64,000 nucleotides of DNA from Companilactobacillus zhachilii (GTDB lineage Bacteria > Bacillota > Bacilli > Lactobacillales > Lactobacillaceae). The number at the start of each line of letters is the position of its first letter. Within the stretch, counting starts at the first letter, position 1. The notes beneath the pieces are model-generated. The model worked only from the letters and a program-made list of their open reading frames with translations. It was not told the DNA's origin and did not search any database. Below, one piece after another: positions 24,159 through 62,534 of the stretch. Position numbers and translations under genes: made by a program. Location of the stretch: assembly GCF_003606365.2 (NCBI RefSeq), contig NZ_CP031933.2:1240001-1304000 (forward strand). Direction: 5' to 3'.

Positions 24159-24356
24159 TAGCCGGAAAGAGCAAGAAATTAGGTCGCTGTGCAGGTGGCG
24201 TTAGCACTAAAGTGCTAACGCCACGGGACGAATTTTGAAACTCGCGATTTGTGCGAGATTCAAAATCGAGACAAAAGACCTTGGCTTTTGTCGGTCCCCA
24301 TAGCAACCTAATTTTCTTGCTCTTGAGGTGGCATATTTAACTAGCACCACGTGTAT
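24159..24356 (-). repeat. four-helix covarying repeat, copy 1
   Basis: Minus orientation. Outer stem from GAGCAAGAAATTAGGT; arm 1 GACAAAAG/CTTTTGTC; arm 2 TTTTGAA...TTCAAAA with CTCGC/GCGAG; arm 3 GGCGTTAGCAC/GTGCTAACGCC. Flanks are TAGCCGGA and GAGGTGGC plus AACTAGCACCACG. Fills the spacer between the TetM-like gene and a minus-strand gene. Confidence 0.9.
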
Positions 24357-24380
24357 TATTTATATAATTTCAGAAATATA

Positions 24381-24671
24381 TTAATAAAAATTATTAAGGG
24401 CATACTCTTGTCCAGCCGAATCGAGCATTTCTTGCCATGATGAAAAAGTAGTCGATCGTTGGACGTGATTTTCCCACGATTCAATTGGCAGTCGTTCCAA
24501 AGCATTTTGACTCGTTACACCCACAGATTCAAAGAATTCTTCAATACAAAAAAATTGCGTATTTTTCTCCATGAATTCGTTAGTGAAATAATGGGTAAAT
24601 TGAATTTTATTTAAGTCATTTCTAATTTGACATTCTTGTTTGATGAGCTCCAGTCTTTGTTTTGTTTGCAT
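24381..24671 (-). CDS. hypothetical protein
   Basis: 96 residues, acidic, helical, without membrane span or known motif; aromatic and Gln-rich C-terminus ending Asn-Asn-Phe-Tyr. AGGGGATT stands 9 bases before the ATG. No relation to the neighbours is evident. Confidence 0.6.
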   Translation of the reverse strand: MQTKQRLELIKQECQIRNDLNKIQFTHYFTNEFMEKNTQFFCIEEFFESVGVTSQNALERLPIESWENHVQRSTTFSSWQEMLDSAGQEYALNNFY

Positions 24672-24812
24672 AATAACTAATCCCCTAAAAAAATTATTTA
24701 CTATTCACCATCCAGTATATCAAAAGTTTATTATTTATATGTGCAATTATTAACATATTTTTCCGCAACTTGGTAAAATTTAAGTAAAGGATACAAATAG
24801 GAGGAAACTGTT

Positions 24813-25238
24813 ATGTATAAAAAAATATTAGTAGCTATTGATGGTAGTAAAAGTGCTTATAATGCGTTGAATGCTGCAATTGATTTGGCGAAACAATTTG
24901 ACTCAGAACTCTATTTGGTATCAGTCGTTAATACGGCTAACTTACCAATGAATGTTGGTGTTTCATACGCTCCAGGATTAATTGATGATATGGAAAATGC
25001 TTCCAGTAATGATTTGAAAAAAGCCCAAGGTATTGTCCAAGAGGCTGGGTTAACAGCTACTACTAAGTTATTAAATGGTGAACCTCGTGAACAATTGGTC
25101 AATTTCCCTAAGGAGCAAGATATTGATTTAATTGTAATGGGTAAGACTGGTACAAGTGCCTTTACAAGAGTTTTCGTTGGTTCGGTTACACGTTATGTCT
25201 CAGAACATACTAATATTAATATTTTGATTGTTGTCTAA
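24813..25238 (+). CDS. universal stress protein, UspA family
   Basis: 141 residues, the standard single-domain length. It starts Ile-Leu-Val-Ala-Ile-Asp-Gly-Ser and ends with the ATP-binding pattern Met-Gly-Lys-Thr-Gly-Thr-Ser ... Val-Gly-Ser-Val-Thr-Arg-Tyr-Val, the Gly-2x-Gly-9x-Gly-Ser type. Cytoplasmic ATP-binding dimers of this family help survival under starvation or acid stress. RBS AGGAGG before ATG. A structured repeat follows directly. Confidence 0.92.
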   Translation: MYKKILVAIDGSKSAYNALNAAIDLAKQFDSELYLVSVVNTANLPMNVGVSYAPGLIDDMENASSNDLKKAQGIVQEAGLTATTKLLNGEPREQLVNFPKEQDIDLIVMGKTGTSAFTRVFVGSVTRYVSEHTNINILIVV

Positions 25239-25260
25239 AGGTGTAATATGGTTGGCTGCC

Positions 25261-25430
25261 GCCTCTAGGTGCAAGAAATGTTGGCGCTGTGGGGACCGCC
25301 GAAAGCCAAGGCCTTTCGTCTCGATTTTGAACTTCGCAAAATACGCGAATTTCAAAAGTCGTCCCGTGGTGTATGCGTTAAAGCGCCAACGCCACTTGCA
25401 CTGCTGCCAAGATTTCTTGTACCCAGAGGC
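25261..25430 (+). repeat. four-helix covarying repeat, copy 2
   Basis: Outer stem GCCTCT...AGAGGC continuing through GGTGCAAGAAATGTTGG and its near complement. Arm 1 CGAAAG/CTTTCG around the conserved CCAAGG loop; arm 2 TTTTGAACTTCGC/GCGAATTTCAAAA. Twenty-three bases after the uspA stop. Confidence 0.9.
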
Positions 25431-25470
25431 TAGTTTATTAGATAATTTAATTTTTTTATCGTTTAATATC

Positions 25471-25532
25471 AAAAAAGGATTAGATATATTTATCTGGGTA
25501 TAAATACTCGATAAATATCTAGTCCTTTTTGA
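25471..25532. terminator. ATATCTAG hairpin (family C, copy 1)
   Basis: AAAAAAGGATTAGATATATTTA pairs with TAAATATCTAGTCCTTTTT, an approximately 19-bp stem with A/T runs. It lies between the uspA side and a minus-strand gene and can work on both strands. Related hairpins at 28138, 34431 and 62613. Confidence 0.7.
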
Positions 25533-25582
25533 TATTTGCCTATATAACCAAACTTGAAAAGAAATAATTATGTCAAATCCGT

Positions 25583-26119
25583 TTATTCCAGACTCTTTTG
25601 TTGATTATTTAACATCTTGTCAACTTCAATTTCGTTGTGAGCTAACCAACCACAAGCAGCGGCGGCAATTGCACCAACCAAATCATCCAAGAAGACATTG
25701 ATTTTACCAGTAGACTTGTCATTTAACTTGCCAAGAATGCCATGTTTTAATTTATCGACATAACCATAGTTGGTAACGGAAACTGAGCCATAAAGACTAG
25801 CTAAAGTGATAGCCATGTTTTCATCAATACCGTAAGTTGATTCATCAGTTTGCATAATACGTTGCATAGGTGCTGATAGGAGACCCTTTTCAGCCAGCAC
25901 GTCCAATTCGATTCCGGTCATGATAGCGTTCTGTGCTTCTCGTTTATGCAAAACTTTGTTGATAGCATAAATTGAGACGTCTTCATTTAAACCTTCAACG
26001 TAATCTTTTTCCAAGAAAATGACGATTTCAGCGATATCAGATAGCTCAACGCCACGATCCTTTAAATTTCTGATGATATGTTCATAATATTGTTTATCTT
26101 GTTCCTCATATGATACCAA
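25583..26119 (-). CDS. PgpA-like (YutG-type) phosphatidylglycerophosphatase A family protein
   Basis: 178 residues, start TTG 26119 with GAGGAGAG upstream. The second half has the family pattern: Leu-Gly-Lys-Leu, then Lys-Ile-Asn-Val-Phe-Leu-Asp-Asp-Leu-Val-Gly-Ala-Ile-Ala-Ala-Ala, with the Asp pair typical of PgpA, ending Ala-His-Asn-Glu. PgpA dephosphorylates phosphatidylglycerophosphate in phospholipid synthesis. The Firmicute YutG group has a longer soluble N-terminus, as seen here, so the exact substrate is less sure. It is 19 bp downstream of the HD gene on the same strand, probably an operon. Confidence 0.75.
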   Translation of the reverse strand: MVSYEEQDKQYYEHIIRNLKDRGVELSDIAEIVIFLEKDYVEGLNEDVSIYAINKVLHKREAQNAIMTGIELDVLAEKGLLSAPMQRIMQTDESTYGIDENMAITLASLYGSVSVTNYGYVDKLKHGILGKLNDKSTGKINVFLDDLVGAIAAAACGWLAHNEIEVDKMLNNQQKSLE

Positions 26120-26138
26120 AATGATCTCTCCTCAATAA

Positions 26139-26795
26139 TTATTTTTTTGCATCCCATTCGGCTTTGAACTCGTCAAGAAAGTCCAACATATATTGATGAC
26201 GTTGTTCGGCAATCTTTTTAGCGGTTGGGGTATTCATCATAGCAGTTAATTTTAATAATTTCTCGTAAAAGTGATTGATAATTGTTTCATTATCTAAATT
26301 ACGATATTCGGCCTTATTCATACTCTTACGTGGTTGAATGTTTGGATCGTAAATCGTCTCAGAATTAGCACCACCATAATAAATCGCCCGAGTAATGCCA
26401 ATGGCACCAATCGCGTCCAGACGGTCAGCATCCTGGACGATTTGACCAGCCAATGATAATTTTGGAGGATTGGCCGAAAGTGATTTACTAAAAGATAAAT
26501 TATGTGTAATATAAAGAATTTCATTTATTTGTTCTTCAGTAAAATCAATATTTTGCAAAAAATCCCGTATTTCTTGTTCCAGAGTAGCGGGGTCAGAGAC
26601 TAATTTATCATCAGCCACGTCGTGCAAATAGGCAGCAGCCAGAGTAATAGTTGCATCAGCCGGTTCGTCCTTTAAAATACGCTGAGCAGTTTTGATAACG
26701 CGCTGAATATGGTCAAAATTATGGCCAGTCGCATCATTACTCATCTTCTTAAAGGAAAAGGCCTTGATAGCAGCTAATTGTTCTTTATGAGTCAT
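26139..26795 (-). CDS. HD-domain phosphohydrolase
   Basis: 218 residues from the ATG at 26795 with AAGGATTG ahead. A longer reading frame reaches into the repeat at 26851-27035 and is not real. Metal ligands: His in Gly-His-Asn-Phe-Asp-His, the His-Asp pair in Tyr-Leu-His-Asp-Val-Ala-Asp-Asp, and a late Asp in Gln-Asp-Ala-Asp-Arg-Leu-Asp-Ala-Ile-Gly. This is the YedJ/YpgQ-like group of small cytoplasmic HD hydrolases, some of which act on nucleoside phosphates. Probably co-transcribed with the PgpA-like gene. Confidence 0.85.
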   Translation of the reverse strand: MTHKEQLAAIKAFSFKKMSNDATGHNFDHIQRVIKTAQRILKDEPADATITLAAAYLHDVADDKLVSDPATLEQEIRDFLQNIDFTEEQINEILYITHNLSFSKSLSANPPKLSLAGQIVQDADRLDAIGAIGITRAIYYGGANSETIYDPNIQPRKSMNKAEYRNLDNETIINHFYEKLLKLTAMMNTPTAKKIAEQRHQYMLDFLDEFKAEWDAKK

Positions 26796-26829
26796 ATAAT
26801 CAATCCTTTTTTGAATGAATACATATATT

Positions 26830-27040
26830 GTACGCGTGGTGTTAGTAAATATGCCATCTACAAGAGCAAGAAATTTTGGGTCACTGTGGGGACCGATTGG
26901 AGCCACAGTGCGGTCTCCAATCTCGATTTTGAACTTCGCAAAGAACGCGAATTTCAAAACTCGTCCCGTGGTGTAGGCGCTAAAGCGCCAACGCCACCTT
27001 CACAGCGACCAAAATTTCTTGCTCTTTCCGGCTAGTTCAT
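26830..27040 (+). repeat. four-helix covarying repeat, copy 3
   Basis: Outer stem GAGCAAGAAATTTTGG with CCAAAATTTCTTGCTC (26864-27024). Arm 1 GATTGGAG/CTCCAATC; arm 3 GGCGCTAAAGCGCC. The left flank TACGCGTGGTGTTAG mirrors the AACTAGCACCACG flank of copy 1; the right flank is CCGGCTAGTTCATT. Confidence 0.9.
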
Positions 27041-27549
27041 TGTTTGTTCTTAAAATAACTTTAAGTATTATTTTCCCATCAATGACTAAAATTATAGGAT
27101 ATAGAGCATATCCTTAATCTTTTGACTTTAAAAATTATTTCAATTACGTAATCCAAAAATCAACTAGCACCACGAGTATATTGTGACACAAATTATTTTA
27201 TATCTAAAGTTTGGAAGTGAAATAATCTGTCTCCTTCGGTTGTTTTGAAGAAGTTCTTCCATTTTTACGATGGATTAATTTCTCGACAATGACCAGAGTG
27301 AAAAGGGCAAATAAGCTGTTATAATAATATATATAGATAAGTTATGGGGTTTAATTTTAGTTAAATTATTACGTTTCCAATTATATTAGGGTTCGAAAGC
27401 TAGACTTTAGTAAATGTACAAGTCCAAATTAATTGAATGGTTTTGGAAACAGTCTGATTTAACTCTAATTTCAGAAATAATTTTCTATGTATTAGCATTT
27501 CATCAAAATTTGCTTTATAATTAAGACATATTTTAGGGAGGCCTAATAA
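27041..27549. other. repeat flank and ahpC upstream region
   Basis: 27041-27180 continues the repeat copy: it contains ATTATAGGATA and ends AACTAGCACCACGAGTAT, also found after copy 8 (51959-52105). The rest is AT-rich. A TATAAT (27516-27521) before the ahpC RBS is the probable -10. Confidence 0.5.
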
Positions 27550-28113: not shown

Positions 28114-28137
28114 TCAATAAATATATCTCGTGTAAAG

Positions 28138-30347: not shown

Positions 30348-30465
30348 CTATTCTTAGTGATTATATTTTAAGCTTTGCACTCTGTTCGTCACTGACACAA
30401 GAGCAGTCAAAACGATACTAATACTCTGACTTATTGACAATGTATTCAAAACAACGAATAAACTA

Positions 30466-30647
30466 GCCGGAAGGAGACAGAAAATTAGATGGCAGTGAAG
30501 GTGGCGTTAGCGCTTCAGCGCTTACGCCACGGGACGAATTTTGAAATTCGCGTACTTTGCGAAGTTCAAAATCGAGCTTGGAGACCGCTCTTTGGCTCCA
30601 AGCGGTCCCCACAGCAATCTAATTTTCTGTCTCCTGGAGGCGGCCCC
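30466..30647 (-). repeat. four-helix covarying repeat, copy 4
   Basis: Minus orientation. Outer stem GGAGACAGAAAATTAGAT with ATCTAATTTTCTGTCTCC; arm 1 GCTTGGAG/CTCCAAGC around the conserved CCAAAGAGCGGT; arm 3 AGCGCT/AGCGCT. Flanks AACTAGCCGGA and TGGAGGCGG. It ends at the stop of the YxeA-like gene. Confidence 0.9.
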
Positions 30648-34147: not shown

Positions 34148-34178
34148 TAAGGTTCTTTCTTAAACTTGGTTATTTGCC

Positions 34179-34348
34179 GTCTCAGAGTGCAAGAAATGTT
34201 GGCGCTGTGGGGACCGACCTGAGCCAAGGTCTCAGGTCTCGATTTTGAACTTCGCAAAGTGCGCGAATTTCAAAACTCGTCCCGTGGTGTAAGGGATAAA
34301 TCCCTAACGCCACCTTCACTGCTGCCAACATTTCTTGCACCCTGAGAC
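34179..34348 (+). repeat. four-helix covarying repeat, copy 5
   Basis: Outer stem GTCTCAG...CTGAGAC continuing through GTGCAAGAAATGTTGGC; arm 1 GACCTGAG/CTCAGGTC; arm 3 AGGGATAAATCCCT. Confidence 0.9.
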
Positions 34349-34430
34349 TAATATATTTGTTATTTTTAATATGATGTAACTAACTCACTCAACAAACAGG
34401 TGCTATCTTATTTAAGATTGAACATAGTCA

Positions 34431-34485
34431 AAAGGCTAGATATTTTCTGGATTTATACCAAGAAAAATATCTAGTCTTTTTTTTA
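34431..34485. terminator. ATATCTAG hairpin (family C, copy 3), no adjacent gene
   Basis: AAAGGCTAGATATTTT with AAAATATCTAGTCTTT plus T-run. It sits between two four-helix repeats with no gene end nearby, so it looks like a repeat rather than a working terminator here. Confidence 0.7.
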
Positions 34486-34570
34486 TTCGATTCTATAACC
34501 AAACTTGAGAAAGAATCCTAAATAATAAGCCGGTGACTTTTTTATGCTAACTAAAGGACATGGTAGTAGT

Positions 34571-34747
34571 CCGCCTGCAGGAACCAAAAAATTATGTCGC
34601 TATGGGGACCGCTTGGAGCCATAGAGCGGTCTCCAAGCTCGATTTTGAACTTCGCAAAGTACGCGAAGTTCAAAATTCGTCCCGTGGTGTAAGGGATAAA
34701 TCCCTAACGCCACCTTCACAGCAACCTAATTTTTTGGTTCCTTCCGG
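34571..34747 (+). repeat. four-helix covarying repeat, copy 6
   Basis: Outer stem GGAACCAAAAAATTA with TAATTTTTTGGTTCC; arm 1 GCTTGGAG/CTCCAAGC; arm 2 TTTTGAACTTCGC/GCGAAGTTCAAAA; arm 3 AGGGATAAATCCCT. Flanks CCGCCTGCA and TCCGGCTAGTTTATT. With copy 5 and the family C hairpin it fills an otherwise gene-free stretch (34148-34878). Confidence 0.9.
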
Positions 34748-34878
34748 CTAGTTTATTCGTTGTTTTGAATAAATTGGAGTATCACATTGTAGGCTTGATT
34801 ATTTTTTCGTCAATAAAAACTAGAGTGCCAAGACTTAAAGTACATTTTGAAACTTTCAACCTTAAGGTACTAATTTAT

Positions 34879-37025: not shown

Positions 37026-37122
37026 TTTGATATTTAATGGATTCTTTTGTAAGAGGGACACAAAAATCACTAAATAGCAAGAAAGGGCTTTTATAAAAAT
37101 AATAGTGGGGAAGGTTCTAAAA

Positions 37123-40100
37123 ATGAGGCAAAAAGTATCTAGTTATGAAGAAAAGAAACGATTCATTTTATATAAGGGACATACAGGCTGGAAAATTAAG
37201 ACAAGAATTTTTGGCAGCTTGTTAATTACTTTCTCAGCGTTTGCTTTTGCGGAAAATACTGGGATTATTAGCGTTCACGCGGCTGATGCAACACCACAAC
37301 AGGAAGAAAATGTTGCTGCATCTACAAAGGACAACTCGTCAGCTAAGTCATCTCAATTAGAGTCAAATACTGGAAATGATAATGAGAATGTTATTGGTGA
37401 AAAGAATCAAGACTCAACAACAGACACTAGTACAAATATTGCTGCAAAGGATAATATCGATTCAGAGCAAGAGGCTAAACCACAAATAGAATCAACAACA
37501 AAATCTGAGGACGAAATGGAGTCACAACAAGCAGAAGCACTATCATCTCAGCCTGAATCTATGGAATCTGATGTTGTTCAAAAAGATAAAAAAGTTATGA
37601 CACCTGAAACAACGCAGATTACACCTCAATCAGCAGATGTTAATGATACGTCAACTAATAAATATCCAGTGCTATCACCAGGTAAAGATGTTGATGTCGG
37701 TGCTGATACCACACAAGTCCACTTATCAGCGGATCAAATAGCCGGTCATTTTACGGCTACAGTCGAAAATAGAGATGGTAGTGATAAAGATAATGACCCA
37801 GCAGATAATATTAAAACAGTACCTATTGGAGCGGATGGAACGGTTGCATTAACAAGTAATGATCCACATCAGTATTATACTTCTGCTGGTAATTCAACTT
37901 CAGTTACTGGGCATCAAGTTGCTCATGTATCATTTGAACATGAAATTGACTTTAGTCATGACTTTTCAATGTCAGGTGCTTTAGGTATTGGAAGTAAAAC
38001 ATCTGGCGGTGCCGATAGTGTCGGCTTTATTTTTGCACCGGGTGATCCATCTAAGGCTACCCAAGGTGGATCTGGTGGTATGTTAGGACTTCAGGGCTTG
38101 GATAATGCTTTTGGATTCGTCTTTGATGAATATGACAACATGAATTCCTATAATGATCCAGGAACATCAACAGGTGGCTGGTTTGGTAGTACGACCTTTT
38201 CACCATATGTTGGTTGGCGTACAACTGATGCGGATGGAAAATTACAAAAGGTAAGTAGTGATGCTGAATGGAAGAAAACAAGTGACCTTACTTTAAACCG
38301 TAGTCAAGGTAATACCTTAAACGATTTCACGATGGACTATAGTTCTAATACAAAGACATTAACTGTCCAACTTGGCGGGCAGACATTCACCAGATCAATT
38401 ACAGATGTAAGTTCTGGATATTCGATTTCTGTTGCCGCTTCAACCGGAGGTTCTTGGAATGATTATTCAGCTAAGATCGATAAGTTTAGTTATACGCCAA
38501 AGACGATTCCTTTAGGGGTTAAGTTAGTGGACGCTTCAGATACAGATGCATTATTGAATAATGTAAAAGTTAAGGCAATTGCTAATATTGGTGATACGGT
38601 TTCCATTTTTTCAACTCAAGAAGCAGCTGATCGTGCTGTTAAAGAAGATAAACTTGATCCTAACCTTGTCGCTGTTATACCACCTGATTCAGCTGGAAAT
38701 ATTTATGTTATTGATGGTGATAAAAATGTACCAGGTGAAACAGGAACAGTACATCATATTGGTGGTGATACGACTGTCGGAGATGGAACATATTATAGCT
38801 ATACGGTTAAAGATGGTGATGGTCAAAATATGACCGTGCCAGTAAGATTAGCCTATAAGGCGGTAGTCACTCCAGTTGATTCAAAAACAAAACAACCAAT
38901 TGCCGGATTGGATCCAGTAACAGTAGTCGCCGTTGCTGGTAAACCATCATTAGTTCAGATTCCAGGATACACAACGACTAAAGTTACTTTAGCCGCTCCA
39001 GTTGAGGGCGAAAAAGTTGCTCATGATAATTTGATAATTAATCAAGGAGCTACTGGTACAGAAACAGCAACAACGACAGATCAGTCAAACCCAATTGGAC
39101 ACTACTATACAGGTGAGAGTAAAACTGTTGATGGACATGAGGTAGTGACAAAAGCTACTGTTGGTACTGGACAATCTGTTTCAGATGATTTGAATAATGG
39201 GAAATTGAATGATAAAGATGGTAATCCTGTTGTTAGTGGTCAAAAAGCTGATGACGGTACAGGTCTAAAGACTATTACCAATAATGATTATTATTGGTCA
39301 AGTGTAGGCAATGCTACTGCAACCGACTCAACCGATGAAACTAAACCTAAAGATAGTGGCAGTATTCTGGTCCCAACGACTTCAACCTTGGATTATTGGA
39401 AAGGCGTTGCGGCAGCTAATCAGACTAAAGCTGATACATATAAACAACAGTCACAAGCTATGCATGACAAGTTTGTTGGTATAACAGGATTAACTCAAAA
39501 ACAAAAAGACGATGCGGATGCATTGTTGCAGTCTGTTGTTGATATTTATGCCAACGTATCACAAAAAAACGGTGATGCTAAAGCGGCATTTGAAGGTGCG
39601 GAGACAGCCACCGATGCCGCTGACATATATAATGGTGGACAAAATGGTTATGCATCGTTGCGAGAAGTTCAGAACCTACTAGTTAGTTTTAAAGCAGATT
39701 TAGGAGCACTAACTACTAAAAATGATGATGTAAAGAGTAGTTTAGCAACCTTTAAATCGTCTACTCAAACATATGGAGATGCTGTCAAATTCCCTGATGT
39801 AAATTTTGGTAGCGGTTACGGAGCAATCACCGATGATCAACTAAAAGAATTTAGTGATCCAAAAAATTATTATTATTATGATGTTGATAATGATCCTGAT
39901 GGGAAAGTTCAAATTTTGAAACCGAAAAATCAGGGCCACTACATGTTAAAGTTAACCGATGCAGGTAGAGAGTATCTAAAGAGCCTAGCTCCAGATAATC
40001 CTCAAGCAGGATTGTATGTTTCATCAATGTTAACGATTAATCCAAAGGAAATTAAGAATGTAACTGTTGGAGATTCAAGTGTGACCTATGGTGGGGATGC

Positions 40101-43100
40101 CAACGGAAATATGCCCGCCTTTAGTGGAAACTTAGGTAGTGCAGCTGAAGATTACAGCAGTGATCAAACTAATAAAGATGATTTTGAGGTGACTGATTCA
40201 AGTGGTGCCGTTGTTGGTGTCAGTCAATTATTGGCTGGAAAAACATATACTATAAGTTATACAAAGGCATTACAAGATAAACTAAATTCTGATAAGAATT
40301 ATAAATTTGATAATTTTGGTACGGGAACTTTAACTGTCAACAAGAGACAAATAACAGTTAAAGCACAGAATCACAGTAAGACATATGGTGATTCATCTGA
40401 CCCTGCTTTTGATTTAACTAGTGATTCAGCAAGGGTGCTTGTTAATGGAGATAAGATTTCAAGCTTAAATATGAAATTTAGCAGAACACCAGGAGAAAAT
40501 GCGGGAACCTATACAATTAGTGGAAGTAGCGATAGTAGTAACTATAGTGTGATTGTCAATGATGGTACATTTACGATTGCACAAAAGCCAGTAAGTATTA
40601 GTATAAGTAGTCCAACAGTTCACTATGGTGATAGTATTCCAGCTCCAACATTTACCCTCGATAAGGGGAGCTCGTTAGTTGGTACTGATAATGATTCTGA
40701 TTTGAAAGTGACGCTTACTAATCCCGATGATGCCAAAAATGTTGGTACTTACGATATAACTGGAACAGCCGCCAAGGATGGAAATTACGATGTAAATATC
40801 AATAGGGGAACATTATCTATCATTCCTAAAGAAGCTAATCCAACAGTTGAAGGAAACAGTATAACTTATGGTGATACAACACTACCAGAAATAAAAGGTA
40901 GTTTAGATACTGCATCAGGTGACCATCAATTAGATCAGTCGGATTTTGAGGTAGTAGATGATTCGGGTAATTTAATGGATCTAAGTAAAGATAAATTACA
41001 AGTTGGTAAGAAATATTGGATTCAATATACAGATAAAGCTCAAGCTGATTTGGAAGCGGACAAGAATTATGATTTCAAATCGTTTGGCAGAGCTGCATTA
41101 ATAGTGAATGCCAAAGAAGCTAATCCAACAGTTGAAGAAAACAGTATAACTTATGGCGATGAAACACTACCAGAAATAAAAGGTAGTTTGGATACCGATT
41201 CAGATGACCATAAATTAGATCAGTCAGATTTTGAGGTAGTAGATGATTCGGGAAATTTAATGGACCTAAATAAGGACAATCTACAAGTCGGTAAGAAATA
41301 TTGGATTCAATATACGGATAAAGCAAAAGCTTCCTTGAAAGAAGATAAGAATTATGATTTCAAATCGTTTGGCAAAGCTGCATTAACAGTAAATGCCAAA
41401 GAGGCTAATCCAACAGTTGAGGGAAATAGTATAACTTATGGTGATAAAGTACTACCAGAAATAAAGGGTAGTTTGGATACCGTATCAGGTGACCATAATC
41501 TGGATCAGTCAGATTTCGAAATAGTAGACGATTCAGGAAAGCTAATGGATCTAAATAACGATAAGTTACAGGTTGGTAAGAAATATTGGATTCAATATAC
41601 AGATAAAGCTCAAGCTTCTTTGAAAGCAGATGATAATTATAATTTTGCTTCGTTTGGCAGAGCCGCATTAACAGTAAAAGCTGAAGGTGCTAATCCAACG
41701 GTAGAGACAAACAGTATAACTTATGGTGATACAACATTACCCGAAATAAAAGGAAACTTAGATGCCGCATCAGTTGATCATCAGTTAAGTCAAGCAGACT
41801 TTGAAGTGGTAGATGATTCGGGTAATTTAATGGATCTAAGTAAAGATAAATTGCAAGTTGGTAAGAAATATTGGATTCAATATACGGATAAAGCGAAAGC
41901 TACTTTGAAAGCAGATAAGAATTATGATTTCCAGTCGTTTGGCAAAGCTCAGTTAATAGTAAATGCAGAAGATGTCAATCCAACAGTTGATTCAAATTAT
42001 ATTACCTATGGTGACAAGTCACTTCCAGAAATTACTGGGAGTTTAGATGCCGCGGCGGTTGATCATCAGTTAAGTCAATCGGACTTTGAAGTGGTAGATG
42101 ATTCAGGTAATTTAATAGATTTAAGTAAAGATAAATTACAAGTTGGTAAGAAATATTGGATTCAATATACAGATAAAGCTCAATCTGCTTTGAAAGCTGA
42201 TAAAAATTATGATTTCAAATCGTTTGGTAAAGCTCAATTAACAGTAAAAGCAAAAAATGTTAATCCGTCAGTTCAGAGAAGTAGTATAACTTATGGAGAT
42301 AAAACACTTCCAAAAATTATTGGTGATTTAGATACTGAGTTCAGTGATCACAACCTAGAACAGTCAGACTTCGAAGTAGTGGATGATTCAGGTAATTTAA
42401 TAGATTTAAGTAAAGATAAATTACAAGTTGGTAAGAAATATTGGATTCAATATACAGATAAAGCTCAATCTGCTTTGAAAGCAGATAAGAATTATAACGT
42501 TCAATCGTTTGGTAAGGCTCAGTTAACAGTAATAGCAAAAGATGCCAATCCAACAGTAGATTCAAATTATATTACCTATGGTGACAAGTCACTTCCAGAA
42601 ATAAAAGGTAGTTTAGATACCGCAAAGGTTGATCATCAGTTAAGTCAGGCAGACTTTGAAATAGTAGACGATTCAGGAAAGTTAATGGATTTAAGTAAAG
42701 ATAAGTTACAGGTTGGTAAGAAATATTGGATTCAATATACAGGGAAAGCAAAAGATTCTTTGGAAGCAGATAAAAATTATGCTTTCCAGTCATTTGGTAG
42801 AGCTCAATTAACAGTAAATGCCAAAGAAGCTAATCCAACAGTTGAAAAAAATATAATAACTTACGGTGATACGACATTGCCAGAAATAAAGGGTAGTTTA
42901 GATACCGCAAAGGTTGATCATCAGTTAAGTCAATCTGATTTTGAAATAGTAGATGGTTCAGGAAAGTTAATGGACCTAAGTAAAGATAAATTACAAGTTG
43001 GTAAGAAATATTGGATTCAATATACAGATACAGCCCAAGCAAACTTGAAAGCAGATAAGAATTACGACTTTCAATCGTTTGGCAGAGCTCAGTTAACAGT

Positions 43101-45714: not shown

Positions 45715-45758
45715 CAAACAAGACCAGCAATCCAAAATCGGATTGCTGGTCTTGTTTG
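45715..45758. terminator. apex-conserved hairpin terminator (family B, copy 4)
   Basis: 19-bp stem CAAACAAGACCAGCAATCC with its complement, between the convergent adhesin and glycosyltransferase genes. The left flank (45650-45714) resembles that of copies 2 and 6. Confidence 0.85.
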
Positions 45759-45760
45759 CT

Positions 45761-47059
45761 TTAAATTCGCTGGGTTTTATTCCAAGTTGTTTGATGACTG
45801 ATTAAATGATAAATAGCGATGATTAAGCTGAAAAATAAAACGATATAAATATAGGAAATTAAACCAATTGAAAACAGAATATTATGAACGTGGAATTTGA
45901 TATTAAAAATATCTCCTCGATTAATAATTAACTTGGCCCGATCGCTTAATTTTAATTCTTGCATATAAATAATTGTAAAGATAATTCCAAAGAACAATCC
46001 AATAATTGCCAACGCAATCAGGACGACGAATAGAAATTCAGGATTATTAATGTGCTTGAAAACAAAGCGGATTGTTAAATAAATAATACTGAAGTCAGCT
46101 AATAAATTAAGCACTGGTTGGAAAAAGAAGAAGTAACTATCAAATTTTTGTGAGAGGGACATTTTTTTTGACTGAATAATTTGTTTCATATATTTCCAAC
46201 AATTAAAACCACCTTGAGACCAACGGGCTCGCTGGATAACTAACTTTTTAACGTTTCTTAGAGCCTCTTGATCGACATAAGCATCGGCAATATAAGCGAT
46301 ATGGAGCCCCTTTAATTCCATTCGTAAAGTTAGTTCATAATCTTCCAATAGCGCGTTACCCCAGGGTGTCGTACCCAATTTTTTAGTAATGCTAGAGTAT
46401 CTAAAAAACTGGCCATTTCCACATAATGCAACAGCGTTTAGATTAGCACGAAATAGTTGGGTTAGGTGATTGATTGTAAAAAATTCAATATCTTGAAATG
46501 TCTGTAGAACTTTTAGTGGTGACTTCATTTTGACACGTAATTGGACAGCATCATTTCTCTCATTACTGAAAGCGTCGTTTAGTTTAAGAATACTGTTATT
46601 GCTTAGGACACCATCGGCATCAATAACACCGACAATACAATTTTTAGGATCGAGATTATGTTGACGAATAAAGGTTTGAATTGTTGGCATTGCATAGTTT
46701 AGGGAATCGCCTTTACCTGTTCGGGCATTAGGTAGTTTACGTTCAACAATGGAAATTGGTCCATCTACTTGATGAACTTTAATTAAAGTATCGTCAATTG
46801 AATCATCGTCAATAACAATAATTTGTTTTTGACCGGGAAGCTTGAGTACATTATTAAGCGTATTTTGAATAACTTTTTCTTCATTTAAACAGGGGATCAA
46901 GATGAAATAGAAGAATTCGTCGACTGGAGTATGTGACTGATATGCATTCATCAAAGCACGTTTGTAAGGCTTACGTTGATTAAAATAAACAAACAGCATG
47001 ATAAAGCATTGCGTCAGAAAAACGGCGAGGGCAATTAAATATATAATCATTTTTATCAT
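45761..47059 (-). CDS. processive family 2 glycosyltransferase
   Basis: 432 residues. One N-terminal span, a GT-A domain, then three or four C-terminal spans. Catalytic signs: Asp-Asp-Asp-Ser (84-87), Asp-Ala-Asp (147-149), Leu-Glu-Asp-Tyr (238-241) and Gln-Arg-Ala-Arg-Trp (276-280), the D,D,D,QxxRW set of processive enzymes such as cellulose, hyaluronan and poly-GlcNAc synthases. It should make and export a beta-linked surface polysaccharide. No accessory synthesis gene is adjacent, so the product is not predictable. It lies next to the giant adhesin. Confidence 0.88.
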   Translation of the reverse strand: MIKMIIYLIALAVFLTQCFIMLFVYFNQRKPYKRALMNAYQSHTPVDEFFYFILIPCLNEEKVIQNTLNNVLKLPGQKQIIVIDDDSIDDTLIKVHQVDGPISIVERKLPNARTGKGDSLNYAMPTIQTFIRQHNLDPKNCIVGVIDADGVLSNNSILKLNDAFSNERNDAVQLRVKMKSPLKVLQTFQDIEFFTINHLTQLFRANLNAVALCGNGQFFRYSSITKKLGTTPWGNALLEDYELTLRMELKGLHIAYIADAYVDQEALRNVKKLVIQRARWSQGGFNCWKYMKQIIQSKKMSLSQKFDSYFFFFQPVLNLLADFSIIYLTIRFVFKHINNPEFLFVVLIALAIIGLFFGIIFTIIYMQELKLSDRAKLIINRGDIFNIKFHVHNILFSIGLISYIYIVLFFSLIIAIYHLISHQTTWNKTQRI

Positions 47060-47160: not shown

Positions 47161-47347
47161 TAATATGCCACCTCCAAGAGCAAGAAATTTTGGTCGCTAT
47201 GGGGACCGATTCGAGCCAAAAGGCGGTCTCGAATCTCGATTTTGAACCTCGCAAAATGCGCGAGTTTCAAAAGTCGTCCCGTGGTGTAGGCGTTGAAGCG
47301 CCAACTCCACCCGCACAGCGACCAAAATCTCTTGCTCTTTCCGGCTA
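47161..47347 (+). repeat. four-helix covarying repeat, copy 7
   Basis: Outer stem GAGCAAGAAATTTTGGTCGC with GCGACCAAAATCTCTTGCTC (47178-47337); arm 1 GATTCGAG/CTCGAATC; arm 2 with CTCGC/GCGAG; flanks GCCACCTCCAA and CCGGCTAG. Confidence 0.9.
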
Positions 47348-47383
47348 GGGTGTGCATTCAAATTAGTCTGGTAAGAATTTATT

Positions 47384-47515
47384 CTGATACGGATAAATAT
47401 TTTAAGAAGGTGATTGTTCCAGAATCTTATCCAGACGGTAATAAGGACCTGAAAAACATTTGAGACATCAAGCCATTCTTGAGTTAATAAAGAACTAGTC
47501 CGAATCTGGAGACGG
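47384..47515 (+). repeat. long flank repeat, hairpin-free copy
   Basis: About 130 bp similar to 52180-52305 (shared stretches GGATAAA, TTTTAAGA, GATTGTTC, AGAATCTTAT, CAAGCCATTCTTG, GAACTAGTC). At its end AACTAGTC runs straight into CGAATCTGGAGACGG, where the other copy has a complete structured repeat inserted. The rest of 47348-47661 is AT-rich with an extended -10 (TG-G-TATAAT, 47622-47630) for the regulator gene. Confidence 0.8.
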
Positions 47516-51673: not shown

Positions 51674-51721
51674 AGTATTTTAAATTAGTGTGAGAAAACA
51701 TGATTGATTTTCGAGCATTAA

Positions 51722-51767
51722 GCAAATGACTCCAGTAATCCGGGTTTGGATTGCTGGAGTCATTTGC
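51722..51767 (+). terminator. apex-conserved hairpin terminator (family B, copy 5)
   Basis: 20-bp stem GCAAATGACTCCAGTAATCC with its complement (one G-T pair) after the second GH13 gene. Confidence 0.85.
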
Positions 51768-51778
51768 TTTCTATGTAC

Positions 51779-51961
51779 CCGCCTCCAAGAGCAAGAGGTT
51801 TTGGTCGCTATGAGGACCGATTCGAGCCAAAGAGCGGTCTCGAATCTCGATTTTGAACCTCGCAAAAAACGCGAGTTTCAAAAGTCGTCCCGTGGTGTAT
51901 GCACTGAAGCGCCAACACCACCTGCACAGCGACCAAAATCTCTTGCTCTTTCCGGCTAGTT
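51779..51961 (+). repeat. four-helix covarying repeat, copy 8
   Basis: Outer stem GAGCAAGAGGTTTTGGTCGC with GCGACCAAAATCTCTTGCTC (51789-51948). Arm 1 GATTCGAG/CTCGAATC; arm 2 CTCGC/GCGAG. Flanks CCGCCTCCAA and CCGGCTAGTTTATT. A flank block to about 52105 ends AACTAGCACCACGCGTAT, as after copy 3. Confidence 0.9.
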
Positions 51962-52179
51962 TATTCTTTGGTTCTAAATCAATAGTGAGTAATTTTCAAT
52001 ATTATAATGTCACCTATAACTAAAGTTATAGGATAAGGGGCCTATTTGGATTTTAAAAGTGGTTTTAAACCTATAGTAAAAAATAAACTAGCACCACGCG
52101 TATCTATGCTTTTTATTATATTCAATTGCAAATAATGATGTACTTGTTTATCGAATTAGGTAGGGGATTTCTTCCAATT

Positions 52180-52305
52180 AATCTGATATGGATAAACATT
52201 TTAAGAGCAAGATTGTTCTAGAATCTTATCATGACTGTAATAAAGGCTATGAAAAATATTTGAGCTATCAAGCCATTCTTGGGTTAATGAGGAACTAGTC
52301 GGAAG
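52180..52305 (+). repeat. long flank repeat, copy carrying the structured insert
   Basis: Similar to 47384-47505. Here AACTAGTC is followed by GGAAG and the structured repeat copy 9, whose right side rejoins GAATCTGGAGACGG. Confidence 0.8.
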
Positions 52306-52480
52306 ATTCAGACAGTGGTTACTGGCAGTGAAAGTGGTGTTAGGACGACCGCTTTTGTCGTTCTTACAGCACCGGGCGCGTTTAAGACTTGCCGAACTTG
52401 CAAGGCTTAAACCGAGGTCCGAGACCTTGGCTCGGGCCGTTCCGCACTGCCAGTGACCACTGTCTGAATCTGGAGACGGC
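52296..52480 (-). repeat. four-helix covarying repeat, copy 9 (divergent)
   Basis: Minus orientation. The 25-bp outer stem starting ATTCAGACAGTGGT (52306-52469) shares almost no bases with copies 1-8, yet the layout is the same: arm 1 CCGAG/CTCGG region, arm 2 GTTTAAG/CTTAAAC with CTTGC/GCAAG, arm 3 AGAACGAC/GTCGTCCT. Flanks AACTAGTCGGA and TGGAGACGG. Confidence 0.8.
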
Positions 52481-54848: not shown

Positions 54849-55660
54849 TGGATAAAAAAGGCCGTGTTGGATTAGGAATTATTGGATTATTACTCGGAAT
54901 ACTTTGGTTATTCCCATTTTACCTAATCGTAACTAACTCATTTAAAACACCAAAAGGGATCTTCGCATCTGTACTCTCGTTCCCACATCCAAGTACCGGT
55001 GATAACTATGTGAATTCCTTCAAGGCTTTGAACTTTATCGGTTCATTGACTAATTCATTAATTATCACAGTCTGCAGTGTTTTGTTGATCATTCTTTGTT
55101 CATCAATGGCTGCATATGCTTTACAAAGAAATCACAGTAAATTGAGTGGCGGAATCTTGATGCTCTTTATTTCAGCTATGTTGATTCCATTCCAATCAGT
55201 TATGATTCCTTTGACAGCTAACTTCGGTGCCGTTCATTTTCTAAACATGTGGGGCTTGGTAATTATGTATCTAGGATTTGACGCTAGTTTGTCAGTCTTC
55301 TTGTATCAAGGTACATTAGCAAGTATTCCTATTGCGATGGATGAATCAGCTGAAATTGAAGGAGCTAGTCGTTGGCAGATCTTTACAAAAGTTATCTTCC
55401 CAATGCTTTCTCCAATTACAGTTACAGTTGCTATTTTGAACATCATTGCTATCTGGAACGATTATCTATTGCCATCACTTGTCTTACCACAAGCGCAATA
55501 CACAATTCCTCTACAAATGTTCAACTTCTTCGGTGAATATACTAAGCAATGGCATTTAGCCTTAGCTGGTATTACACTTTCCATCATTCCAGTTATCATC
55601 TTCTATCTATTTGCTCAAAAATGGATTATCAAAGGTGTTACTGATGGTGCTGTTAAGTAA
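54848..55660 (+). CDS. malG: maltodextrin ABC permease, MalG-type
   Basis: 270 residues, six spans, EAA loop Glu-Ser-Ala-Glu-Ile-Glu-Gly-Ala-Ser-Arg-Trp-Gln-Ile-Phe (about 160-173). Overlaps malF by one base; RBS GAGAGGAGG lies inside malF. Pairs with MalF to form the channel. Confidence 0.9.
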   Translation: MDKKGRVGLGIIGLLLGILWLFPFYLIVTNSFKTPKGIFASVLSFPHPSTGDNYVNSFKALNFIGSLTNSLIITVCSVLLIILCSSMAAYALQRNHSKLSGGILMLFISAMLIPFQSVMIPLTANFGAVHFLNMWGLVIMYLGFDASLSVFLYQGTLASIPIAMDESAEIEGASRWQIFTKVIFPMLSPITVTVAILNIIAIWNDYLLPSLVLPQAQYTIPLQMFNFFGEYTKQWHLALAGITLSIIPVIIFYLFAQKWIIKGVTDGAVK

Positions 55661-55671
55661 TTAATTTTAAT

Positions 55672-55858
55672 GCCGTCTCCGGTCACAAGCAGTGAAATCG
55701 CTGTGAGGACCGGCACAAGCCAAGGTCTTGAGCCTCGATTTTGAACTTCGCAAAGACCGCGAATTTCAAAATACGTCCTGTGCTGTAAGGCCGGGGAAAA
55801 CACCCGACCTAACACCACTGCCACTGCTGATTTCACTGCTTGTGACCTCCGACTAGTG
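55672..55858 (+). repeat. four-helix covarying repeat, copy 10 (divergent)
   Basis: Outer stem GGTCACAAGCAGTGAAATC, 19 bp perfect (55681-55847). The arm 1 loop keeps GCCAAGGTC. The inner pair AGGAC/GTCCT replaces GGGAC/GTCCC of other copies, a compensatory change. Flanks CCGTCTCC and TCCGACTAGTGTATT. Lies within the transporter operon, between malG and the DUF624 gene. Confidence 0.85.
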
Positions 55859-55946
55859 TATTAATCAATTAAATAAAATTTTGGTTTGGGACGATATATA
55901 AATAATTATTTTCAATCTTTGAATTAAAAAGAAAGGACGAACTGTT

Positions 55947-56603
55947 GTGATCAATTTAAAATCAAAAAATGGGCAGCGACTTATCGCGAGTGGGAACTGG
56001 TTGATGTCATTGTTTACCATCAATTTCTCATTCTTCTTAATCAATTTTTCGGTTATCTTGACCGCAATTGTTTTGTTCAATTTAAAATTTTCAACTACGT
56101 ATAGTGTTTTTTTGATAATTCTTTGGTTAATGATTTCTGTCTTCACGATTCCTGGATTGGTAGCAAGTTTTGCTGCTGTTCAAGAATGGCAGACTAATGG
56201 TAGTGTAAGTTTCTTCAAATACTTTTTTAAAGAATGGTTTGATTCTCAGAAAAACTATCGTATCAATTTTGGCTTAGGTTTAGTAGCTAGTTTGTTCATC
56301 TTACTAAACAAGGTTACGTTGGGAAGTCCAGTCTGGCACATGGCTGTGTTGATTTTCACATTTGTGTATTTCATGGTTTTAGTGGCAACTGGATTTCAAT
56401 TGGCAACGCATAAATTTGATAGTATTTTGACATTATTTGTTGAAAAACCTTTTCCAATAATTATCTCAGTAATAGTATTTTTAATCTTGATCTTAATGAA
56501 TTTCGTTTTGCAATTGGCTTTTCTAAGTGTTATCTGTAGCGTATCGCTTCCAACGTACGTTTCTTACAGACTGCTTGGTGGTCAAATAGCCAAAAAGGAT
56601 TGA
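55947..56603 (+). CDS. DUF624 (YesL-like) membrane protein
   Basis: 218 residues, GTG start behind AAAGGA. Five or six spans; early pattern Gly-Asn-Trp-Leu-Met-Ser-Leu-Phe-Thr-Ile-Asn and Thr-Ile-Pro-Gly-Leu-Val-Ala-Ser-Phe-Ala-Ala fit DUF624. These proteins are often encoded with sugar ABC transporters and glycosidases and have no proven function. The repeat before it and its own RBS suggest partly separate expression. Confidence 0.8.
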   Translation: MINLKSKNGQRLIASGNWLMSLFTINFSFFLINFSVILTAIVLFNLKFSTTYSVFLIILWLMISVFTIPGLVASFAAVQEWQTNGSVSFFKYFFKEWFDSQKNYRINFGLGLVASLFILLNKVTLGSPVWHMAVLIFTFVYFMVLVATGFQLATHKFDSILTLFVEKPFPIIISVIVFLILILMNFVLQLAFLSVICSVSLPTYVSYRLLGGQIAKKD

Positions 56604-57834: not shown

Positions 57835-57851
57835 AATAGGAGGTGTACTTA

Positions 57852-60095: not shown

Positions 60096-60108
60096 TTGTA
60101 GAATACGG

Positions 60109-60143
60109 GTGTCTGGATGATTATTAGTTCAGGCATCTTTTTA
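60109..60143 (+). terminator. weak terminator or processing hairpin
   Basis: TGTCTGGA/TTCAGGCA (two G-T pairs) with T-rich tail between mapA and pgmB. Confidence 0.5.
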
Positions 60144-60165
60144 TCAAAAGAAGGAGCGCGCTAAT

Positions 60166-60849
60166 ATGGTTAAATTCGCACAGGTTAAAGGATTTTTATT
60201 CGATCTAGATGGAGTTATTGCTAATACATCAGTTTATCATGCTAAAGCATGGCATCAATTAGCTGATGAATTGGGTGTAACATGGACCGAAGATTTAGGT
60301 AATCAACTTAAGGGCGTCGGTCGTATGGATTCGCTCAATCTTATTTTGAAGTATGGTGGTAAAGAGAATGACTATACCGAAGATGAGAAGATTAAGTATG
60401 CTGAAGAAAAGAACGATAATTATTTGAAATTGCTTGATACTTTAGACAAGTCAGAAATTTTACCTGGTATGGAAGATTTCATTAAGGATCTAGCAGCACA
60501 TCATTACTTGATTTCATTAGCATCATCATCAAAGAATTCACCACTAGTTTTGGAAAAATTAGGTTTAGCGCAATATTTTGATGAAAAAGTTGATCCTGCA
60601 ACTTTGAAACATGGAAAACCTGATCCTGAAATTTATACTCGTGCAGCTGAAGTCTTAAACTTGAAACCAGAAGAATGCATTGGTTTGGAAGATGCCTCGG
60701 CAGGTGTCACATCCATCAATGGTTCTGGCGCTATTTCTGTTGGTATTGGTGATCCGAAGGTCTTGCATGAAGCTGACATTAACTTCAATGATACATCTGA
60801 GGTTACTTTGGATAATATCAAGAAAGAAATGGATAAAAAAAAGTTTTAG
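60166..60849 (+). CDS. pgmB: beta-phosphoglucomutase
   Basis: 227 residues, HAD family. Nucleophile Asp13 and acid/base Asp15 in Phe-Asp-Leu-Asp-Gly-Val; the cap domain follows with His at Tyr-His-Ala-Lys-Ala-Trp. Ser-Ser-Ser-Lys-Asn (motif II/III) and Gly-Leu-Glu-Asp-Ala-Ser-Ala-Gly (motif IV) match PgmB. Converts beta-glucose-1-phosphate to glucose-6-phosphate. RBS AAGGAGCG. Confidence 0.92.
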   Translation: MVKFAQVKGFLFDLDGVIANTSVYHAKAWHQLADELGVTWTEDLGNQLKGVGRMDSLNLILKYGGKENDYTEDEKIKYAEEKNDNYLKLLDTLDKSEILPGMEDFIKDLAAHHYLISLASSSKNSPLVLEKLGLAQYFDEKVDPATLKHGKPDPEIYTRAAEVLNLKPEECIGLEDASAGVTSINGSGAISVGIGDPKVLHEADINFNDTSEVTLDNIKKEMDKKKF

Positions 60850-60872
60850 ATGATTGAGGGTTCGGACGATAA

Positions 60873-61859
60873 ATGGTAGTAGTAAAGAAATATTTTGGGG
60901 AAACAGACGGAAAAGAAGTTTCTCTCTATAAAATAACTAATAAAAATCAAACAAGTATTAGCGTTTTAAGTTATGCCGCAACTTGGCAAAACTTTGAGGT
61001 TGTTGAGGATGGTGTCAAACATTCATTAATTGAACATTTTGATAATTTGAATGATTATGTAAAAACACCATATGAAGTTGGAAAAACTATTGGTCGTGTT
61101 GCCGGTCGTATTACTAAGTCTCATTTTCAAATTAATAATGTCGACTACCAATTGACACCTAATGACGGCAAAAATATCATTCATAGCGGGAAAAATGGTT
61201 TACAAACTCAGAATTTCGACGGCACAGTCGACTCCGATAATTCGGTTGTTTTTACGCACACAGTTGCTGGCGAGGATGGTTTTCCCGGTGAATTAAAAGT
61301 TAAGATACGTTATGCATTGAGTGATGATGATGAAGTGTCAATTACTTACAGTGGTCAAACGAATCACGATACATTGTTTAATCCAAGTTGCCACGTTTAT
61401 TTCGATTTGGACGATGGAAATATTAGACAGCAACAACTACGTATCAATGCTAAGCATTTCTTAGATATGGACAGTGAAAAACTACCAACTGGGAAGATGT
61501 TGGCCGTTACTAATGCGTATGATTTTAAGAATTTCAAAAAAATTGGTCAAGGATTAAAGCAGTTAAAACCACTGGATAAATTTGAATTTGATGATGCTTA
61601 TGTAGTGCATGATAAGGCTGCAACGTTGAAAGATAGTCAGCGGGCTGTTGATTTCTATACTGATCGTAACGGACTAGTTATTTTCACGGCCAGTCCAATT
61701 GATCAACAAAGAGCCGGCGCCAATGATTACAGTTCCATTGCTATGGAGTTGATGACGTTACCAGACGCAATCAATCATGAGGACTTTGGTAATACCATTT
61801 TACAGGCAGGACAAAAAGTTAGTTATACAAACAAATTCAAGTATCGAAAATTAGATTAG
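60873..61859 (+). CDS. galM: aldose 1-epimerase (mutarotase)
   Basis: 328 residues. Gly-Arg-Val-Ala-Gly-Arg-Ile, Asn-Pro-Ser-Cys-His-Val-Tyr-Phe-Asp-Leu (catalytic His) and late Leu-Pro-Asp-Ala-Ile-Asn-His-Glu-Asp-Phe identify GalM. The usual Asn-His-Thr-Tyr-Phe is Ser-Cys-His-Val-Tyr-Phe here. It interconverts alpha- and beta-anomers; the phosphorylase pathway handles one anomer of glucose, so mutarotation helps use both. Confidence 0.88.
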   Translation: MVVVKKYFGETDGKEVSLYKITNKNQTSISVLSYAATWQNFEVVEDGVKHSLIEHFDNLNDYVKTPYEVGKTIGRVAGRITKSHFQINNVDYQLTPNDGKNIIHSGKNGLQTQNFDGTVDSDNSVVFTHTVAGEDGFPGELKVKIRYALSDDDEVSITYSGQTNHDTLFNPSCHVYFDLDDGNIRQQQLRINAKHFLDMDSEKLPTGKMLAVTNAYDFKNFKKIGQGLKQLKPLDKFEFDDAYVVHDKAATLKDSQRAVDFYTDRNGLVIFTASPIDQQRAGANDYSSIAMELMTLPDAINHEDFGNTILQAGQKVSYTNKFKYRKLD

Positions 61860-61872
61860 AGGGGTCTATTTT

Positions 61873-62256
61873 ATGAGAATTGAACATGTTGGGTTATTTG
61901 TTAAAGATCTGGAGCGCACGGTTGAGTTTTATCAAACATTTTTTGATGCGACTGCTTCGGAAAAATATCATAATCCAGTAACCACATTTTCATCACGTTT
62001 CTTAACATTTCCAGATGGAGCACGCTTGGAAGTTGGAACGCGGGAAGATTTAAATCGTCATCACGAGCAAGGGTATCCTTTGGGGTATATGCATTTGGCT
62101 ATGTCACTTGGTTCTAAAGAGAATGTTGACAATTTAACTAAAGAAATTGCAGCCGCCGGATATAAGCATCTCAGTGGTCCTCGGACAACTGGAGATGGTT
62201 ATTATGAAAGTGTTGTTTGTGACCCTGAAGGAAACCAAATTGAATTAACAGTTTAA
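61873..62256 (+). CDS. VOC (glyoxalase/bleomycin-resistance fold) protein
   Basis: 127 residues, one VOC domain of two beta-alpha-beta-beta-beta modules. Probable metal ligands: His5 (Ile-Glu-His-Val-Gly-Leu-Phe-Val), Glu in Arg-Leu-Glu-Val-Gly, His in Tyr-Met-His-Leu-Ala, and Glu in Asn-Gln-Ile-Glu-Leu-Thr. Substrate unknown; a glyoxalase I-like role fits a sugar-catabolic setting. 13 bp after galM, last gene of the locus. RBS AGGGGT. Confidence 0.85.
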   Translation: MRIEHVGLFVKDLERTVEFYQTFFDATASEKYHNPVTTFSSRFLTFPDGARLEVGTREDLNRHHEQGYPLGYMHLAMSLGSKENVDNLTKEIAAAGYKHLSGPRTTGDGYYESVVCDPEGNQIELTV

Positions 62257-62355
62257 ATAATGGAAATTGAATATAAAATGCGGGAGAGTGTGACAAACAA
62301 AGTCAACTTTTGGTCATTGAAACAAATAAAATTCGTAATCCGATTTTGTTGGTTG
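62257..62355. other. spacer with half of a family B hairpin
   Basis: Contains GTAATCCGATTTTG (62336-62349) without the matching right arm: a decayed or interrupted family B copy that runs straight into structured repeat copy 11. Confidence 0.5.
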
Positions 62356-62534
62356 CCGTCTCTGGGTGCAAGAAATGTTGACGCTGTGGGGACCGGTTCG
62401 AGCCGAAAAGCGGTCTCGAACCTCGATTTTGAACTTCGCAAAGTGCGCGAATTTCAAAACTCGTCCCGTGGTGTAATGGCTAAATCCATAACACCACCGT
62501 CACTGCTGCCAACATTTCTTGCACCCAGAGACTA
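62356..62534 (+). repeat. four-helix covarying repeat, copy 11
   Basis: Outer stem GTCTCTGGGTGCAAGAAAT with its complement (62358-62532). Arm 1 GGTTCGAG/CTCGAACC; arm 2 TTCGC/GCGAA; arm 3 ATGG/CCAT. Ends the maltose locus. Confidence 0.9.

Follow-up and report, generated by a model that had tools for sequence, protein, structure and literature searches.

The window analysed here was a 64,000-nt stretch of Companilactobacillus zhachilii DNA (NCBI RefSeq assembly GCF_003606365.2, contig NZ_CP031933.2, positions 1,240,001 to 1,304,000 of the forward strand) with eleven copies of a repeat that folds into four helices. The repeats rather probably belong to short, non-autonomous elements of Lactobacillaceae, similar to miniature inverted-repeat transposable elements (MITEs), that carry folded DNA domains and are moved in trans by some transposase. 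Mobility, copy number, the fold, the coupling of stem arms and the tail-to-tail pairing of folds were each demonstrated by comparing sequences between copies and between genomes. A full unit would consist of a terminal inverted repeat (TIR), a four-helix fold of about 180 nt, a spacer, a different four-helix fold in opposite orientation and a second TIR; many Companilactobacillus units would carry a single fold, and insertion would duplicate a few bases of the target.

Fold copies, architecture and abundance

In the pairing tests, plus strand denotes the orientation in which the four-helix fold is written out here, and minus its complement; next to coordinates and copy counts, plus and minus give the orientation of a copy in the DNA. 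Genomes were labelled G000 (own genome), G024 (sister genome) and G011 and G012 (further relatives aligned). The eleven copies reported by a first-pass annotation of the window all exist (175–186 nt each) and contain the arm sequences quoted there; a covariance-model search of the 64-kb window gave no fold copy outside 24–62.5 kb. Folds, delimited units and one remnant were located as follows.

24158–24332 (minus): fold copy 1; without counterpart in G011 and G012; G024 allows no comparison, its sampled stretches lacking a match to the left flank
25258–25433 (plus): fold copy 2; missing from the corresponding site in G024, G011 and G012
26832–27177 (plus): whole mobile unit of copy 3; ends ACGCGTGGTG.../...CACCACGAGT; ATATTGT on both sides
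26853–27035 (plus): fold copy 3, inside the preceding unit
30463–30644 (minus): fold copy 4; missing in G024
34151–34518 (plus): whole unit of copy 5; ends GGTTCTTTCTTAA.../...GAAAGAATCC; flanked on both sides by TAAATAATAA (by eye)
34176–34351 (plus): fold copy 5, inside the preceding unit; missing in G024
34570–34751 (plus): fold copy 6; missing in G024
47167–47348 (plus): fold copy 7; missing in G024
47495–47515 (minus): foot of a collapsed fold, CTAGTC beside CGAATCTGGAGACGG; apparent remnant of the tail-to-tail partner of copy 7 (by eye)
51778–51959 (plus): fold copy 8, tail-to-tail with copy 9; missing in G024, G011 and G012
52295–52480 (minus): fold copy 9, of a diverged subfamily; missing in G024, G011 and G012
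55665–55921 (plus): insertion with copy 10, 257 bp; AATTAA at both ends
55672–55856 (plus): fold copy 10, inside the preceding insertion
62355–62535 (plus): fold copy 11; only an apparent decayed stump at the site in G024

The architecture was that of two nested three-way junctions. The outer stem leads to a junction with arm 3 and the inner stem (GGGAC/GTCCC), which stands beside arm 3 and bears arms 1 and 2. The feet of the eleven window copies were conserved; the head foot mostly reads GCC(G/A)(C/T)C and the tail foot G(G/A)CTA(G/A).

A covariance-model search (E up to 1e-15) was run over 464 kb, comprising the window and a 400-kb spaced sample of the genome. It returned 86 full-length folds (11 in the window and 75 in the sample; 42 plus, 44 minus), which extrapolates to about 500 copies per 2.71-Mb genome and agrees with the many genomic copies that the annotation had named as a check. 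The outer stem had a median of 23 matched pairs in these 86. Kept out of the count were an end-cut copy (L078:1-118), a 71-nt remnant (L079:2754-2824), a 34-nt match and antisense matches to the palindrome. One 142-nt copy (L079:13805-13946) had lost arm 2 wholly, as if by deletion between two CTCG repeats, with the remainder intact.

Exact matches to one fold segment were found in 43 stretches, all in named Companilactobacillus species. In Lactobacillaceae the fold was found in 79 of 301 sampled genomes, belonging to 11 of 40 genera, under stricter filters that make 79 a lower bound. Plasmid and phage records gave no match to one own-genome copy, and plasmid records gave none to one composite each from genomes G321, G228 and G169.

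Empty sites, terminal repeats and target duplications

An insertion was seen at copy 10. The region (window 54860–56600) was present with the copy in G024 (93% identity over the whole query), and the site was empty with the same flanks in G011, G012 and eight more genomes, that is, in 10 of 10 other relatives aligned. This insertion is laid out as 7 nt, the fold and 65 nt of AT-rich tail. The unit of copy 3 likewise had an empty site in the sister genome G024. Ten window copies could be compared with G024: one was shared, eight were absent and copy 11 was represented by its stump only. Several of the empty sites were not clean to the base, the intergenic DNA having diverged as well, and deletion is possible there. 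In G024, 76 kb around the matching places (L156–L159) held one fold at E up to 1e-10, compared with 11 in the 64-kb window. Elsewhere G024 had at least 76 fold matches, a local density sharply different from that of the matching places.

The delimited window units were 257, 346 and 368 bp long. Two subfamilies of the own genome had extended units bearing their own TIRs. In G321, a genome of another genus, the unit was about 540 bp and bounded by CTAAAGGTTGAAAG and its complement; with one mismatch allowed this pattern occurred at 132 places, and its reversed control at none. Perfect flanking duplications of 7–11 bp were found at 16 of 23 G321 end pairs and 10 of 11 matching bases at three more, with a tolerance of up to 4 bases in the placement of the ends. 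Where the ends were unshifted (n = 8), the perfect duplications were of 8 bp in five cases, 7 bp in two and 9 bp in one. The end pairs spanned 201–556 bp in 22 of 23 cases and 3676 bp in one. Target duplications measured 6 and 7 bp at the two window sites and mostly about 8 bp in G321. A downstream match to the G321 end (up to 2 mismatches) was present in 3 of 86 own copies, with no upstream partner and no match to the reversed pattern; the similarity of unit ends across genera is suggestive only.

Short size, TIRs, target-site duplication and both occupied and empty orthologous sites are those of MITEs; the further MITE feature, lack of a transposase gene, was argued from unit size. Of the identities offered by the first-pass annotation, a non-autonomous mobile element agrees with the empty sites and duplications, and the presence/absence comparison it proposed came out positive in sister genomes. 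Its four-helix repeat is real as a fold. As the element itself it is incomplete: the mobile unit is larger than the fold, adding TIRs in several subfamilies and, in other genera, usually a second, inverted fold as well.

Covariation of the stems

The annotation's claim that pairing is kept while sequence drifts held in pair counts and shuffles for both 11 and 86 copies, with covarying pairs in every helix. In the eleven window copies 92.5% of 719 cells were paired, double-sided changes occurred in 36 of 66 pairs, and none of five pairing measures was reached in any of 500 shuffles. Shifting the partner columns by 1–3 lowered pairing to 33–45%, in a test that favours the structure because it was drawn on copy 7. 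In the 86 copies 94.3% of 5619 cells were paired, double changes occurred in 51 of 66 pairs, and 890 double-change cells were counted against 230 in shuffles; this alignment was fitted to the covariance model and so leans towards the structure. These counts are of sequences, not of independent events, and were gauged by pair counts and shuffles.

The outer-stem arms were also aligned against each other without a model. Matched positions numbered 1953, mismatched 83 and gapped 51, over a stretch that starts and ends with matched runs by construction. Of 2036 ungapped positions, 1953 agreed between an arm and its partner (96% within a copy), 82 of 86 outer 5' arms were distinct, and outer-arm identity between copies averaged 54% (600 random pairs) against 44% when shuffled. 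Arm 1 had 40 distinct stems among the 86 copies, with variants recurring across copies; 8 of 36 arm-1 5' sequences were found in more than one outer-stem cluster, one loose cluster containing 62 copies. Some arm-1 variants accompany more than one outer stem, so whole-arm exchange between copies may inflate the double-change count.

TIR arms served as an internal control for stem coupling. In one subfamily they were uncoupled (mismatch 15% within a unit and 13% against other units; both ends readable in 5 of 8 units).

Stems could instead be kept paired by mutation, with template switching or hairpin repair perfecting palindromes by changing both arms in one event; the units would then be ordinary MITEs with a functionless fold. 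Such correction would account for the few single-sided changes in the 86 copies, the rarity of stem mismatches of every kind and the uncoupled state of the distant TIR arms. It also fits the loops, whose conservation did not clearly exceed that of the stems (mean entropy 0.62 in loops and 0.71 in stems overall, 0.58 and 0.56 in the arms). However, drift plus correction would hardly have preserved full-length matches to one multi-junction model in 11 genera, and strand-symmetric repair would not give the wobble asymmetry described below. We regard this explanation as unlikely.

Tail-to-tail pairs of folds

Fold pairs less than 600 bp apart were tail-to-tail in 39 of 42 cases and head-to-head in none. 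The proportion was 15 of 16 in the own genome and 24 of 26 in four other genomes, the latter from a set of 65 rows less 3 antisense ones (62 folds). In two genomes of other genera most folds stood in such pairs: 22 of 26 in G321, 1–52 nt apart, and 16 of 20 in G228, 69–108 nt apart. As a rule these pairs joined one high-scoring with one low-scoring fold. The G321 and G228 stretches were partly picked around known matches and give no copy number. Some close pairs of the own genome were two adjacent units, such as 51778/52295 (by eye), and many units had a single fold. The stretch preceding the collapsed foot at 47495–47515 was homologous to 52178–52313.

Folded strand and nucleic acid

Compensatory change in a repeat is usually taken as a sign of RNA. 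In a selected transcript G.U pairs are tolerated and A.C pairs are not. On the plus strand the 86 copies gave 4996 Watson-Crick, 107 A.C, 44 G.U (0.85%) and 52 other pairs, leaving out 5 of 66 column pairs with Watson-Crick pairing in fewer than 70% of copies; with all 66 included the counts were 5189, 144, 107 and 179. The gap was small in the outer stem alone (31 A.C, 21 G.U). Per copy (n = 86), A.C exceeded G.U in 50, fell below it in 16 and tied in 20. The 62 folds from four further genomes (one in the genus itself, three outside it) gave 140 A.C and 58 G.U pairs, with A.C in excess in 43 copies against 8 and 11 ties (p = 7e-7). As a control, 35 tRNAs of the same genome (595 pairs) gave 562 Watson-Crick, 26 G.U, 3 A.C and 4 other pairs, with stems placed by best match and hence fewer mismatches.

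A structured RNA from the plus strand, the strand written by the first-pass annotation, appears unlikely on this test, because A.C exceeds G.U in the stems, the opposite of the tRNA control. The folded, constrained strand is probably the complement of the written orientation. A cruciform used equally on both strands predicts no wobble asymmetry, and asymmetry was seen. We infer that the kept form is probably DNA that is single-stranded at some stage; RNA from the minus strand is less likely.

An RNA fold spread by transposition (for example a 3' untranslated region, processing or regulatory element) would explain the deep covariation and the excess of G.U over A.C on the minus strand. That excess fell short of the one in tRNA (ratio, p = 0.04; G.U share, p = 0.001), and wobble was about half as common there as in tRNA. 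The plus-strand test goes the wrong way for RNA, and the 1–52 nt between paired G321 folds leave little room for promoters reading outward. Copies showed no orientation bias to the nearest upstream open reading frame (ORF; 39 same, 46 opposite, 1 none, with crude ORF calling); for the same reason a 3'-untranslated-region or terminator reading of the tail-to-tail pairs was rejected. Rfam gave no match in the whole window at gathering score, and at E up to 1, for 24–36 kb only, two weak matches with neither on a fold copy, in keeping with the annotation, which knew of no named family that fits. The RNA explanation seems very doubtful.

The annotation had also placed the copies always between genes. 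In a rough test (a simple choice of longest ORFs of 80 codons or more in place of a gene caller) most copies had no ORF contact and 23 of 86 touched an ORF. Twenty of these 23 ORFs were 83–132 aa long, many of them within the element itself. Longer ORFs accounted for the remaining three contacts, which overlapped by 1, 83 and 105 nt; the latter two lay at ORF starts possibly called too long.

Mechanism and search for a mobilising enzyme

A unit of this size is too short for the usual transposase gene and would have to be moved in trans by an enzyme not found here. In the simplest mechanism the units would be MITEs moved by a trans-acting DDE-type transposase. The folds would most likely be structure-specific sub-terminal recognition sites, for the transposition complex or a host factor; alternatively they may be hairpin intermediates in which one arm can template repair of the other. 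Going by the wobble test, the folded strand at each end of a two-fold unit would be the one with its 3' end outward. The strand with the outward 3' end is the one that a DDE enzyme joins to the target; a match of this sort would arise by chance in one case out of two.

Several observations weigh against elements of this kind with DNA folds. TIRs are not recognisable in every copy (none were seen at copy 10). TIR sequences vary between subfamilies, and one common transposase does not explain them. Only 32 of 86 own-genome folds belong to close pairs. The state of the loops does not support recognition of loop letters. On the minus strand G.U reaches 2.1% and A.C 0.85%, the direction that RNA predicts, and one kept column pair is reversed, 48 of 86 copies having T.G there on the plus strand. 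Searches with three TIRs, in lists judged by eye, gave no autonomous relative sharing those ends (for the G321 TIR, among the matches listed, 100 of 132 places).

Candidate parents and mobilisers were set aside as follows. By eye, the ORFs in the 3.7-kb stretch that separates two G321 ends resembled polysaccharide genes, with no transposase among them. In G000 a candidate of 1.3 kb proved to consist of two units side by side. Judged by eye, there was nothing unusual about the ORFs close to unpaired G321 folds. An ISL3-type insertion sequence (IS) lies in the window at 15650–17090, the only ISL3-family match in the genome, its transposase split over two overlapping frames (ORFs 15718–16383 and 16322–16957, minus). 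It was rejected as mobiliser: its ends begin GGCTCTTTGTC and agree with those of one subfamily in their first letters only.

Movement by an IS200-type (Y1) transposase, as in repetitive extragenic palindromes (REPs) and their mosaic dimers (BIMEs), was also weighed. Y1 enzymes are not known to make target duplications, and the duplications found here speak against that mechanism. Y1_Tnp (PF01797) had no match in G000, though 18 of 36 genomes of the genus have one. The likeness lies in palindromes with a short unpaired foot that often pair up with an unlike second member, a pattern that PMC3733652 gives for REP dimers. According to the same paper, REPs are single hairpins of 20–40 bp, the GTAG kind being linked to genes for REP-associated tyrosine transposases (RAYTs), whereas the present folds measure 175–186 nt and have several helices. 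A REP/BIME-like family moved by such an enzyme is highly improbable.

A mini-replicon- or transposon-like element would be a bolder reading, which we hold to be quite unlikely. Two unlike cloverleaf hairpins on the 3'-end strands would bound it, and it would multiply through a strand-specific, single-stranded folded intermediate, arm templating arm, in the manner of hairpin-ended genomes. If true, this would be a propagation of bacterial mobile DNA that recognises DNA shape more than letters.

Other features of the window

Another hairpin, about 48 bp long (TAATCC...GGATTA), is also repeated in the window. Its outer arms differ yet stay complementary, and it lies near gene ends in a terminator-like position at the following sites.

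about 17139–17190: 48-bp hairpin
24057–24105: 48-bp hairpin
45716–45764: 48-bp hairpin
51720–51770: 48-bp hairpin
63680–63728: 48-bp hairpin

By eye, the unit of copy 11 (62308–62340) and a sampled unit (L090:16442) seem to sit as insertions in hairpin loops of this type. An ORF of 2841 codons (37105–45630) with about eleven tandem repeats, mostly of 285 bp, probably encodes a large surface protein.

Comparison with known systems

About 500 copies in the genome, with relatives in 11 genera, form a large natural set in which the folded strand and the nucleic acid can be asked for, and the answer leans towards DNA. Folds that are transposition substrates would offer a ready system for shape-based DNA recognition by a transposase; folds that are not would be a natural record of palindrome repair. 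The kind of element is familiar, and no named family with such paired folds was found. The open-access literature gave no paper on this repeat family in Companilactobacillus or other Lactobacillaceae, which is weak evidence of absence.

Prokaryotic MITEs, in the portion of PMC10969869 that describes them, share short size, lack of genes, TIRs, target duplications, AT-rich intergenic sites, high copy number and folding. Here, by contrast, conservation lies in an internal, multi-branched fold that subfamilies with unlike TIRs have in common; a full unit carries two different folds tail to tail, and no parent IS was found.

The bcr1–bcr18 repeats of the Bacillus cereus group are likewise of 100–400 bp, with many chromosomal copies and mobile features; the section of PMC6542083 concerned ties a TTTAT motif to their movement and describes them as confined to that group. 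They are set apart by description, not by sequence comparison.

Streptococcus pneumoniae belongs to the same order as Lactobacillaceae. Its BOX, RUP and SPRITE repeats are also high-copy, strongly folded and apparently mobile, and in BOX and RUP the TIRs pair with each other, as the pertinent passages of PMC3049150 describe; the word stems 'compensat' and 'covaria' are absent from the main text of that paper. Compared by description, not by sequence, the present elements differ from BOX and RUP in that coupling is seen in the internal arms and not in the TIRs of the tested subfamily.

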